Origin: Robiginitomaculum sp.
Lineage (GTDB): Bacteria > Pseudomonadota > Alphaproteobacteria > Caulobacterales > Maricaulaceae
DNA: 64,000 nt
Direction of reading: 5' to 3'
NCBI GenBank assembly: GCA_002733605.1
Contig: NVWK01000005.1
Location: forward strand, 1 to 64,000
The translations under genes and the position numbers were made by a program. This document shows, one piece after another, positions 9,855 to 45,485 of this stretch; the stretch's first letter is position 1; every line of letters begins with the position of its first letter. The notes beneath the pieces are model-generated. The model ran no database searches. It was not told the DNA's origin and saw only the letters and a program-made list of their open reading frames with translations.

Positions 9855-11381
9855 ATGCCCAGCACACAAACTGATCCTGTTAAATTTACCGACCTCGGCC
9901 TTTGCGCTCCTATTTTGAAAAAACTGGAGCGGCAGGACTATGTGACCCCGACCCCTATTCAGGCGCAAGCGATACCGCTTATTCTGGCAGGTAAAGACGT
10001 TGTGGGTCTGGCGCAAACGGGTACAGGGAAAACGGCCGCCTTTACATTGCCGGTTTTGCACAATCTGGCTGAAAAATACCTGTCCGGCGATACGGATGTA
10101 TACGACCGCCCGATCCGAATGTTAATTCTGACACCGACCCGCGAATTGGCCGCACAAATTGACAAAGCTGTACGCAGTTACGGAGAGAATTTGACAACCC
10201 GTTCGGGGTGTGTCGTTGGCGGTGTTCATGCCCACAAGCAAAAGAAAATGCTGCGTGGCGGTGTGGATATATTGGTGGCGACGCCGGGACGGTTGGAGGA
10301 CTTACACAGTCAAGGCGTGGTCGAATTAGGCCAAATCGACACGGTGGTTTTGGATGAGGCTGACCAGATGCTCGATATCGGGTTTATGCCTGCCATCAAA
10401 CGCATATTAAGCCTGACCCCGAAAAGCCGGCAAACCCTGTTGTTTTCCGCGACCATGCCGCGTCAAATTCGCGAACTTTCAAACCGCTATATGCGCAATC
10501 CGGTCGAGATTGCCGTGGCAACCGTGTCTTCAACGGCCGAGCGGGTCAAACAAAGTGTCATGTTCTTGCCGCAGCCGCAAAAAACCAGTGCGCTTATAGA
10601 GCTTATCAAAAAACACAAAAATGAGCGGGTGATTGTGTTTACCCGCACCAAACGCGGTGCAGACCGGGTGGCCAAGCGCCTAAACTCTCAAAATCTGGGG
10701 GCCGCCGCCATTCACGGCAACCGCTCGCAAAACCAGCGCACTAAAGCGCTCGCAGCGTTTCGCGCGGGTGACGTTCCCGTGCTTGTGGCCACCGATGTGG
10801 CCGCGCGCGGTATTGATATTCCGGGGGTTGAGTTGGTGGTTAATTTCGATCTGCCGCAAGTCGCCGAAGCCTATGTGCACCGGATTGGCCGGACGGCTCG
10901 GGCCGGGGCTTCCGGTCTTGCCGTTATGTTTTGCAGCGATGAAGAAATGGGGATGCTGGCCGAGATTGAACGCATTATCAAAAAGAATATTCCCGTGATG
11001 AATGCGGACGGCACCGTCCAGCCCGAGCCGGAATGGTCTCCGAGCGAGCGCTCGTATAGTGGCCCGAAACCGAAAACGAAAAACAGTACGCGGAGCGGAC
11101 GCAAAAGGCAAAAGGCGGACAGCGGCGGCGAAGATAGCCCGCAAAACTACGCACAAACCCATAATTCCGAAACCGGCGCCCAAAGAGCGGGTGGCAGCGG
11201 CGAAAAGCGTAAAGCGCATTCAGGCCAAAAACCACGTCCCGCTAAAACAAAGGGGCACAGAGGCCAAAGCCAGCCGAGAGTTGCGGGTCAATCTGCTGAA
11301 GGCGGCAGCAAATCAGGCGGCAAACGCCGTAACCGTCCCGGTTCACGCGCACGCAAGCGCAATAGAGCGGCCAAAGACTAG
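9855..11381 (+). CDS. DEAD-box RNA helicase, RhlE-like
   Basis: An ATP-dependent RNA helicase for ribosome assembly or mRNA remodelling. The Q motif region ('DYVTPTPIQAQAIP'), motif I 'AQTGTGKTAA', motif II 'DEAD', motif III 'SATM', motif V 'ATDVAARGIDI' and motif VI 'HRIGRTAR' are all present within about 380 residues. The C-terminal 120 residues are a low-complexity Lys/Arg/Ser/Gly-rich tail, as in RhlE proteins, that probably binds RNA non-specifically. Length (508 aa) is usual. It ends before a pair of palindromic repeats that probably terminates transcription. Confidence 0.93.
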   Translation: MPSTQTDPVKFTDLGLCAPILKKLERQDYVTPTPIQAQAIPLILAGKDVVGLAQTGTGKTAAFTLPVLHNLAEKYLSGDTDVYDRPIRMLILTPTRELAAQIDKAVRSYGENLTTRSGCVVGGVHAHKQKKMLRGGVDILVATPGRLEDLHSQGVVELGQIDTVVLDEADQMLDIGFMPAIKRILSLTPKSRQTLLFSATMPRQIRELSNRYMRNPVEIAVATVSSTAERVKQSVMFLPQPQKTSALIELIKKHKNERVIVFTRTKRGADRVAKRLNSQNLGAAAIHGNRSQNQRTKALAAFRAGDVPVLVATDVAARGIDIPGVELVVNFDLPQVAEAYVHRIGRTARAGASGLAVMFCSDEEMGMLAEIERIIKKNIPVMNADGTVQPEPEWSPSERSYSGPKPKTKNSTRSGRKRQKADSGGEDSPQNYAQTHNSETGAQRAGGSGEKRKAHSGQKPRPAKTKGHRGQSQPRVAGQSAEGGSKSGGKRRNRPGSRARKRNRAAKD

Positions 11382-42672: not shown

Positions 42673-44586
42673 TCAAAGTAAAAATAGCACTGCGCGTTCA
42701 TGGGTGCGTTGCAAAAATGCGGTTTCTAAAGTGGTAATCAATTCTTGCGTGAACCGGGATGCGGCCTCGTCATTCCAAGCCGTTGCTACAGATTTTATCA
42801 ATTCATCGCGTTGGCTATTGGCGGCTTTTCTCACGCGGCTATTGGTCATTAATTTGCGGGCAAGGATGGGAATTTTTGCAGAACGGAGCTTGCCTTCCAA
42901 GGCCTTGCGGCCAAAGAAAAACCCGCCAACACCCAGTGCGCCCCCTACGGCAATGCCGATCGGGTTTGCCAGCAGCGGAGCCAATAGGTTGGCTTTGGCC
43001 AGCAAGACACCAATGAGGATTGCCGAGACGGTTGTTCCGGCCAGAGCGGTGTCGTTTTCCAGACTGGCCACTTGGGGTGCGGCGACGCTTAAGCCTTCAA
43101 GGTGGCGGCTGATATGGGCATTGTCATCAAGGGACAACACCATGGCCGGCAAACCATGATCGCGACAAAGCGGGTCGGTAATATGTTCGATAGAACGTTG
43201 TAATTCTGCAAACCAATTTTCAATTGCGGGCCGCAATGTGGATTGGGCTTCGTCACTGCCTAGCCACATTTGCACACGCTCGTTTAGAACCGCTTCGACC
43301 CCGTCCAGGTTTTCGATTTTGCCTTTGCGCCAATCTGCAAATGCGGGCACAACGCAGGCTTTAATCAGGGCATCGACCAAAACCGGCGCCAATATATCGC
43401 CAAGCCCTTCGCTGGCGGTTTTGGCTTTCTCAAATACGGGGCCGCCTTCGCTGACCAATTCCGCGACAGCATCTTGAAAGCTGGCATGCAGATATTCAAA
43501 CCGGCCCAACCAGGCCAAGCCCCTTGCAATGGCAAATTCCGGTTCTGCACCGCGCACAACACGGGCATCCGGGAAAGCTTTCTCGCAGGCCGGGGCAACC
43601 AAGGGGAGGCGCGAAGCCCCACCCGTCAGCAACACCGTTTGCGGGGCACGTCCGCCCAAACCCTGCACCGCTTCTTTCAGGGCGTAGTCAAATGTTTCGG
43701 GCCAGTTAAATCCGTTAAGCGCGGGTATTGGTGCCTTTAAAATTGCTTTGGCGTCGGCTTTATCCATGCGGATTTCAAACAAAACACCTCCTGCAACAGG
43801 CAGGCGGCGGATCATTTCAACCGACGTTTCTTCACCGTTGAAATATTGTTCTTTGGCAAGACGGCACCAATATTCCATGATCGGGCGATAATAGGGATAG
43901 CGCGCAATCAATTTTTCTATTTTTTTGCGCTCAGGCTGGCGCTCAAGATTGCGTTCGAAAATGAGTGTGTCCAGAAGTCCCGAGCCCAAAACATTATGGC
44001 CGACATCTTCTGCGTCCAGATCCATGCAATAGGTAAAGTCCGTGGTGGATGACCCAATGTCGACAATGAGCACACTTGAACGTGCAGCTTCTAAAGACAG
44101 ATACCCTTGCTCCAGAGCTGTCATAAGTGCCGCACGGGATTCGGGTACAATGCGTACGGTTTTCAAGCCAGCGCTTTGTATTAAGCCGGTATAGTTTTTC
44201 CGATCCTGGGCGTCCCATCCCGATGGGCAACCGACAATGAATTGGCTTTGGGATAGGCCCTGGATTTTCTTGTCTTTGGCAAGGTCAGTGAACAGTGTTT
44301 TTGTAAACAGACGTGTCGGAATTTGGGTGGCGTCATCAGTAATATCGCGGCTTTTGAACTTCACCCAGACATGGTCTTTACGGTCTCCAATCGCGACTAA
44401 ATTGACCGCTTGTGCCCCGATGCGTACACCAGTTTTACCTTTGGCAACGGCGGTGACGAAACTGCGCTCGCCCATATATTCTAAAATTTCCGGCTCCCGT
44501 GCAGAGCCACTATAGGCCCGACCAATAGCCGTTTCCCCGTGGCCAAGATCATAGCCAACAAACTCAATATTCCCAGAGTTACTCAT
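42673..44586 (-). CDS. Hsp70-like ATPase with C-terminal membrane hairpin
   Basis: A 637-aa protein with an actin/Hsp70-fold nucleotide-binding domain (about 1-370): phosphate-1 'VGYDLGHGETAIGR' at 10-23, phosphate-2 'LIVDIGSSTTDF' at 173-184 and the adenosine motif 'VLLTGGASRLP' at 318-328. There is no recognisable DnaK substrate-binding beta domain or lid. Instead a helical region (370-500) leads to a glycine-rich hydrophobic hairpin (about 518-560, 'SAILIGVLLAKANLLAPLLA', 'GIAVGGALGVGGFFFG') and a helical tail. The start is ATG 44586, overlapping the upstream stop as ATGA. It is coupled to a membrane protein whose C-terminus looks GrpE-like, suggesting a dedicated membrane-bound Hsp70 system. 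The client is unknown. Confidence 0.8.
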   Translation of the reverse strand: MSNSGNIEFVGYDLGHGETAIGRAYSGSAREPEILEYMGERSFVTAVAKGKTGVRIGAQAVNLVAIGDRKDHVWVKFKSRDITDDATQIPTRLFTKTLFTDLAKDKKIQGLSQSQFIVGCPSGWDAQDRKNYTGLIQSAGLKTVRIVPESRAALMTALEQGYLSLEAARSSVLIVDIGSSTTDFTYCMDLDAEDVGHNVLGSGLLDTLIFERNLERQPERKKIEKLIARYPYYRPIMEYWCRLAKEQYFNGEETSVEMIRRLPVAGGVLFEIRMDKADAKAILKAPIPALNGFNWPETFDYALKEAVQGLGGRAPQTVLLTGGASRLPLVAPACEKAFPDARVVRGAEPEFAIARGLAWLGRFEYLHASFQDAVAELVSEGGPVFEKAKTASEGLGDILAPVLVDALIKACVVPAFADWRKGKIENLDGVEAVLNERVQMWLGSDEAQSTLRPAIENWFAELQRSIEHITDPLCRDHGLPAMVLSLDDNAHISRHLEGLSVAAPQVASLENDTALAGTTVSAILIGVLLAKANLLAPLLANPIGIAVGGALGVGGFFFGRKALEGKLRSAKIPILARKLMTNSRVRKAANSQRDELIKSVATAWNDEAASRFTQELITTLETAFLQRTHERAVLFLL

Positions 44587-45485
44587 GAGGATTTCCACAC
44601 AGTACCGCGGCGCAGCACCACCCCGTCCGCCATCAGCGCCGGAGCCGCTTGTTTTGTTTTCACACCGTCCATATCAAGCGCGGGCAGCACATCAAACAGT
44701 TTAGCCGTCTTGCGGGAATATTTGACGATTTCAATGCCTTCCGTGTTTAGAATACTTTCCAGCTCGCTCCCGACAAGTTTCAAAGCAAAATCCGTATCCC
44801 CTACGGCCTTGGCTTCCAGCAAGCCTTGCACAAACCCCATCAACCGCACATCATCACGCCAATGTGTCTCAGTAGTAGGTTCGGCGAGGCGCATTAAAAT
44901 ATGATCGGCTGTGCGCAGGGCATCGGCCAATGTATCAACATACCCGCCCGCTTCGACAGAAATATGGGCGTCGGCCAAGAAAGACTGTCCGCCCGGCCCT
45001 TCTAGCAAAGGTGTTTTCTTACGGCCTATGAACGGGATTTTTGAGAGATAATGCTTCCAGTCTTTCGGGTCAAAAAACCGCAGAGCCGCCAGAACCAAAG
45101 CCGTCATCATGGTCAGGCGCGAAGCCTGTACAAAACCTGCCAGAAAAAACACCAATGCCGCACTATAAAACAAAGTGCTCCCTGCGATAACGCGCCTAGA
45201 TGATTTCGGGACCTCGCGCCAGACAATCTCGGCGCTGACGCCACGGTCCAGAACACCCGCGCCGGATTTGACCATTTCCAGCAACCACAATCCGGCCTTT
45301 TCGAGATGCATATTTTCGGTCTGTTTTGCGAACAGATTGCCTGTCCTGTCCAGTGCACGGCGGGCTTCTGCTACAGATTGTGCCGAGGATAAATCCTGTT
45401 CCGATATGGCCAGCCGCAAAGCTTCACGCTCAGTTTCGAAGGCGCGGGCTAGAGAGGGGATATTGGCTGGCAGGTTCTCGGTCAT
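44583..45485 (-). CDS. membrane protein with GrpE-like C-terminal region, partner of the Hsp70-like ATPase
   Basis: A 300-aa protein with an N-terminal helical, coiled-coil-like part (1-95, 'EREALRLAISEQDLSSAQSV'), two membrane segments (about 99-120 and 122-138) and a C-terminal domain (175-300). That domain has a long helix 'VDTLADALRTADHILMRL', then 'LESILNTEGIEIVKYS', 'KLFDVLP' and a final 'APALMADGVVLRRGTVW'. This order resembles GrpE, where long helices are followed by 'L..xGVE.I', 'FDPxxHEAV' and 'GRVLRPAxV'. The resemblance is by eye and weak in identity, so a nucleotide-exchange role is a hypothesis. Coupling to the Hsp70-like gene (ATGA) supports it. Confidence 0.65.
   Translation of the reverse strand: MTENLPANIPSLARAFETEREALRLAISEQDLSSAQSVAEARRALDRTGNLFAKQTENMHLEKAGLWLLEMVKSGAGVLDRGVSAEIVWREVPKSSRRVIAGSTLFYSAALVFFLAGFVQASRLTMMTALVLAALRFFDPKDWKHYLSKIPFIGRKKTPLLEGPGGQSFLADAHISVEAGGYVDTLADALRTADHILMRLAEPTTETHWRDDVRLMGFVQGLLEAKAVGDTDFALKLVGSELESILNTEGIEIVKYSRKTAKLFDVLPALDMDGVKTKQAAPALMADGVVLRRGTVWKSS

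Follow-up and report, generated by a model that had tools for sequence, protein, structure and literature searches.

The locus described here raises the question of whether a bacterium might possess, in addition to its own DnaK and GrpE, an Hsp70-type ATPase fixed in the membrane together with a dedicated GrpE-related regulator. It lies in a stretch of 64,000 nucleotides from Robiginitomaculum sp. (hereinafter the window), whose initial annotation read two adjacent genes as a membrane-anchored Hsp70-like ATPase and a GrpE-like membrane partner. We investigated this proposal using sequence and profile searches, structure prediction and a survey of gene neighborhoods.

A coupled pair of membrane proteins

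The features of the two genes, given in coordinates of the window, are as follows:

42673..44598, (-): Hsp70-like membrane ATPase gene; 641 residues from GTG 44598, 637 residues from ATG 44586
44583..45485, (-): partner gene; membrane protein of 300 residues, family unnamed
43495..44565, (-): ATPase, Hsp70-type nucleotide-binding domain (NBD), residues ~12-368; from Pfam, profile and Foldseek matches, with signatures GCPSGW and FK
44527..44553, (-): ATPase, phosphate-1 motif YDLGHGETA, conserved in relatives
44035..44064, (-): ATPase, phosphate-2 motif VDIGSSTTDF, conserved in relatives
43603..43629, (-): ATPase, adenosine motif LTGGASRLP, conserved in relatives
42676..43494, (-): ATPase, helical arm replacing the Hsp70 linker and substrate-binding domain; weak LeoBC/LeoA similarity
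42928..43023, (-): ATPase, Gly/Ala-rich membrane hairpin, residues ~526-557, from hydropathy; kept in three clades
45087..45191, (-): partner, membrane hairpin, residues ~99-133, from hydropathy
44595..44945, (-): partner, C-terminal GrpE-like region, residues ~181-297; strongest GrpE profile match at ~234-291

The partner gene is the upstream member of the pair, and the ATG of the ATPase at 44586 overlaps its stop codon as ATGA, such that the reading of the two as coupled genes is upheld by the coordinates and shared strand of the open reading frames. Further upstream on the same strand lie ispG and rodZ, the latter identified by its RodZ_C and HTH_25 matches, while galU lies downstream in convergent orientation. 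No gene for a J-domain protein adjoins the pair in the window, in agreement with what had been noted at the outset. Hydropathy analysis recovers membrane hairpins in both the ATPase and the partner in all three clades of the family, which suggests that both proteins are held in the membrane by their hairpins, with the NBD of the ATPase probably facing the cytoplasm.

The ATPase has a complete Hsp70 nucleotide-binding domain

Several lines of evidence place the N-terminal region of the ATPase in the Hsp70 superfamily. The Pfam HSP70 model matches it with 30.8 bits against a cut-off of 20.6, in the N-terminal part only, and a profile of the ATPase family aligns end-to-end with the NBD of DnaK over residues 6-360 (E 7e-13). 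When the AF2 model of the ATPase (mean pLDDT 61) was used in a Foldseek search, the best 50 matches were all Hsp70 NBDs (best E 2e-8), with MreB absent among them. The three Hsp70/actin nucleotide motifs read in the initial annotation are conserved across the relatives, and DLGH, GCPS-W, ESRAA, DIGSST-DF and GGASR, along with the FK pair, are kept in every clade of the ATPase. The protein has a complete Hsp70 NBD and is hence a member of the Hsp70 superfamily. We also recovered matches to the NCBIfam PRTRC_D model (E 2e-7; 30 bits, far below the cut-off of 215) and to the partition protein PHROG 691 (E 1.5e-10). The ParM-like/PRTRC_D partition ATPases share the actin/Hsp70 superfamily with the present protein but differ in their genomic setting, as no partition genes accompany it in the window.

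The domain also departs from DnaK in two places. DnaK Lys70 is a catalytic residue that stabilizes the transition state of hydrolysis (PMC8215388); the equivalent position is V or L in the window's clade, I in the second clade (f5) and L in the version from Calothrix. As the catalytic lysine is replaced, ATP hydrolysis by the ATPase may be slow. The second departure concerns the GrpE-signature loop (about 290-295 in DnaK), which lacks about 5 residues in the ATPases of the window's clade and is longer in f5. HscA and HscC lack this loop and do not use GrpE (PMC8215388). Given the shortened loop and the missing lysine, any exchange cycle is expected to differ from that of DnaK and GrpE: a partner would have to touch the NBD differently, perhaps aided by the anchoring of both proteins in the same membrane.

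A helical arm replaces the substrate-binding domain

The last 270 residues of the ATPase form an arm that is modeled by AF2 as all-helical around the hydrophobic hairpin at ~526-557. The Hsp70 linker and the β-sandwich substrate-binding domain (SBD) with its lid are absent: there is no Pfam HSP70 match beyond the NBD, and the profile alignment with DnaK stops at residue 360. This substantiates the proposal that the SBD has given way to a helical region with a membrane hairpin. Docking of J-domains uses L391 of the Hsp70 linker and P419 of the SBD-β (PMC8215388); neither has a counterpart in the ATPase, which is consistent with the lack of a J-domain gene next door.

The arm shows a weak similarity to bacterial dynamins. 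When the ATPase family was scanned with the 5027 PADLOC models, only LeoBC, LeoA and PDC-S55 were matched, with LeoBC found in 6 of the 19 members (best E 0.0024) and LeoA in 4 of the 19 (best E 0.0034). Both LeoBC and LeoA are bacterial dynamins (PMC4159319). The arm of the Calothrix protein matches LeoBC in the same register (model residues 349-572), reversed sequences do not match LeoBC, and the helices around the Gly-rich hairpin resemble the dynamin paddle. Remodeling is a conceivable output of the system because of this weak signal together with the hairpin: the ATPase might combine an Hsp70-type switch with a dynamin-like trunk and paddle, whose ATP-driven movement would bend, tether or fuse membranes, with the partner as its membrane-bound regulator. 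We regard this as improbable, as the arm shows no significant similarity to three alphaproteobacterial dynamin-like proteins in hhalign comparisons (P about 0.12-0.21), the f5 arm scanned alone gave no match, one reversed control gave a chance match to an unrelated PADLOC model at E 0.009, and no Pfam dynamin model is matched. Like the ATPase, LeoA and LeoBC have a membrane hairpin within a helical arm, although the profile matches are weak and homology is at most possible; they differ in having a dynamin GTPase domain where the present proteins have an Hsp70-type ATPase domain. In genomes, LeoBC matches mostly fell on the GTPase domain of other GTPases. Separately, we observed an alphaproteobacterium with two dynamin-domain genes close together (G093:C28, 2340 and 7029); any such gene occurs in 3 of 142 genomes of the class sample.

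The C-terminal domain of the partner resembles GrpE

The partner has an N-terminal helical region followed by the membrane hairpin and a C-terminal domain, whose conserved tail bears the motif FD.LPAL...AAPAL..d..LRRGTVW. Searches against Pfam, NCBIfam, PDB sequences, PADLOC and PHROG yielded no significant match, and the Pfam GrpE model matches none of the 19 family members. DUF3000 is matched by 5 of the 19 members, the best E being 3e-4 in one of them, with the window's own protein well below the cut-off.

The GrpE hypothesis had been fixed beforehand by the initial annotation, and a single profile-profile test is therefore a fair one. A profile of the window-clade partners (26 sequences) aligned with GrpE in hhalign with a score of 36.8 (P 1.2e-4, probability 54%), pairing partner residues from about 234 to 291 with the last helix and β-domain of GrpE. 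Column- or block-shuffling of the GrpE profile did not yield this score in any of 800 controls, the maximum being 26.9. Likewise, among 16 families clustered without supervision from the DNA analyzed, GrpE ranked first after the partner itself (38.1, P 8e-5), while the next best of the 14 other real families scored 20.5. When the clades are combined in one profile, the collinear match to GrpE becomes longer, with P from 0.001 to 0.013 depending on trimming and its score exceeded by 1 of 600 shuffled controls. The similarity is apparent with profiles alone, as single GrpE sequences mostly fail to match the partner. The f5 partners on their own match GrpE at P 0.026, in another register at the tail; they show no significant profile similarity to the window-clade partners (hhalign) and are linked to them by position and layout.

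These comparisons indicate that the resemblance to GrpE, which the initial annotation had drawn from the layout of the C-terminal region, is real and specific, and that the C-terminal domain is most likely homologous to that of GrpE. The partner does not appear to be a member of the GrpE family itself; unlike the soluble GrpE, it has a membrane hairpin at ~99-133 in all clades. The coupling stands as originally described, and the GrpE-like C-terminus stands on statistical grounds; a GrpE fold is not seen in the AF2 model, which is poor (mean pLDDT 58). Foldseek searches with this model returned noise and no GrpE match, while the order of helices and strands at residues 179-286 is compatible with GrpE.

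GrpE opens the cleft of DnaK by means of its β-domain (PMC4753570), and the region matched in the partner includes this very domain. The partner could alternatively be a structural subunit or adaptor that orients the ATPase, its GrpE-like tail docking on the NBD without catalyzing exchange. The obligate pairing described below, the shortened GrpE-signature loop and the moderate degree of the GrpE similarity are all in line with such a role, and NBDs of low affinity, such as that of HscA, release ADP rapidly even in the absence of an exchange factor (PMC8215388). Against it, the part of GrpE with which the conserved tail of the partner aligns is exactly the one that acts in the cleft, and we consider an adaptor role unlikely, if the most serious of the alternatives.

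Obligate pairing and a sporadic distribution

The two genes are obligately paired. In a set of 61 relatives, the 19 that have the partner are the same 19 that have the ATPase, and a twentieth relative (G048) has an ATPase of 32% identity that is preceded, on inspection, by a partner sharing the same layout. An order-wide survey of 299 genomes recovered 25 ATPase loci, all 25 with the partner directly upstream. The pair is also found in the same order in another phylum, on plasmid2 of the cyanobacterium Calothrix brevissima (AP018209.1), where the ATPase shows 35.6% identity (E 3e-82) and the partner matches the window-clade partner profile at P 3e-9 (hhalign). The conserved pairing, on which the proposal of a joint system had been made to depend, is thereby borne out by the 25 loci and the Calothrix plasmid.

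Two copies of the partner gene show irregularities. In Calothrix, the tail motif PALLKGDRLLRRGRV is present in a different frame, shortly after the annotated partner gene ends (AP018209.1, about 10610-10690), and this copy looks frameshifted or affected by a sequencing error. In one relative with a low-completeness assembly, the partner gene looks broken, with an internal TAG and two overlapping frames (G004:C288:3048-3940). In several genera of the family, the ATPase is further accompanied, directly or at a short distance, by a membrane-anchored protein of ~190 residues (MKDRFFYPxxAL...) that matches no Pfam model; 11 members of it were clustered (for instance, L149:11171-11761, L152:6621-7181 and L051:10877-11455).

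Outside its order the pair is rare: the only carrier is the window's own genome in both the class sample (1 of 385 genomes) and the phylum sample (1 of 399), and a single plasmid of 72,556 carries it, the cyanobacterial searches having covered plasmids. This patchy distribution, the location of the Calothrix copy on a conjugative plasmid, flanked by integrase genes, and the listing of the dynamin-like LeoBC in a defense database might point to an accessory or defense module on mobile DNA. We find this very improbable, given that the chromosomal location of the pair, near galU/glmS, is stable across most of the genera examined in the family and that no defense genes were recognized alongside it. 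Relatives are also absent among the phage and viral contigs searched, and we reject a phage or viral origin.

Following the placement of the pair behind rodZ and ispG, an envelope or shape role had been suggested. The placement is correct for the window and most members of the genus, which would be compatible with a membrane-localized chaperone or cell-shape factor acting with RodZ/MreB. However, it is confined to the genus: in other genera of the window's family the pair is often found close to galU/glmS but with different neighbors, in f5 it is, from our reading of the sequence, beside an ABC transporter of the metal/cofactor type, and the Calothrix context differs again. Moreover, the ATPase lacks an SBD, and its best 50 structural matches are to Hsp70 and not MreB. 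Accordingly, we reject a shape role deduced from the rodZ neighborhood, and hold the wider reading as a chaperone or shape factor to be the least probable of those considered.

On another contig, the window's genome also encodes DnaK and, about 4 kb away from it, a single canonical GrpE, which is the sole match of the Pfam GrpE model across the genome. This indicates that the pair is an additional system. A second Hsp70 gene in this genome, perhaps HscA-like, is split into two matching segments and contains an internal TGA (C12:4812-6302); it is possibly a pseudogene or an assembly error.

A proposed membrane-fixed nucleotide switch

We propose that the pair constitutes an Hsp70-type nucleotide switch that is fixed in the membrane and has a GrpE-related, likewise membrane-bound regulator of its own, a reading to which we give roughly an even chance. 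This restraint stems mainly from the GrpE-signature loop, which is ~5 residues short in the window's clade when specialized Hsp70s lacking it do not use GrpE (PMC8215388). Under this proposal, the NBD would stay in the cytoplasm, held to the membrane by the hairpin within the helical arm, which would occupy the place of the peptide-binding domain. Because the arm replaces that domain, the nucleotide cycle would most likely result in the arm moving and not in the binding of peptides. The partner, co-translated with the ATPase, would use a hairpin of its own to anchor in this membrane and would present a C-terminal helix and β-domain that either descend from the C-terminal half of GrpE or have converged on it. 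Together, these C-terminal elements would most likely bind lobe II of the NBD and promote or gate nucleotide release, and exchange would accordingly be confined to sites where the ATPase and the partner sit together. A bolder version, which we consider fairly improbable, is that of a second, membrane-embedded Hsp70-type exchange system with a dynamin-like arm and a membrane-anchored GrpE-derived exchange factor, which remodels or organizes the inner membrane.

Relationship to known systems and implications

Among the closest known systems is DnaK/GrpE, with which the pair shares an Hsp70 NBD with all the nucleotide motifs and a partner C-terminus like the helix and β-domain of GrpE; it differs in the ATPase lacking the linker and SBD, in the replaced lysine and shortened loop, and in both proteins being membrane-anchored with no J-protein adjacent. 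HscA and HscC are likewise accessory Hsp70s without the GrpE-signature loop, and HscC is believed to act at the membrane (PMC8215388), but both retain an SBD as well as J-partners, and no exchange factor serves them. The yeast Snl1, an ER-anchored BAG-domain protein, is a membrane-anchored Hsp70 exchange factor and has been described as the only known membrane-associated one (PMC3962485); in contrast to the partner, it has a BAG fold, is eukaryotic and serves soluble Hsp70s.

We found no paper describing this ATPase-partner pair in the literature searched, and, as neither Pfam nor NCBIfam has a name for the partner family, the pair is invisible to annotation. According to a review, bacteria have one type of exchange factor (PMC4753570). 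The pair may extend this textbook view of a single, free-floating bacterial exchange factor. If a GrpE-related partner and an ATPase devoid of a client-binding domain hold, the use of the Hsp70 cycle would extend from the handling of peptides to a membrane-bound switch.
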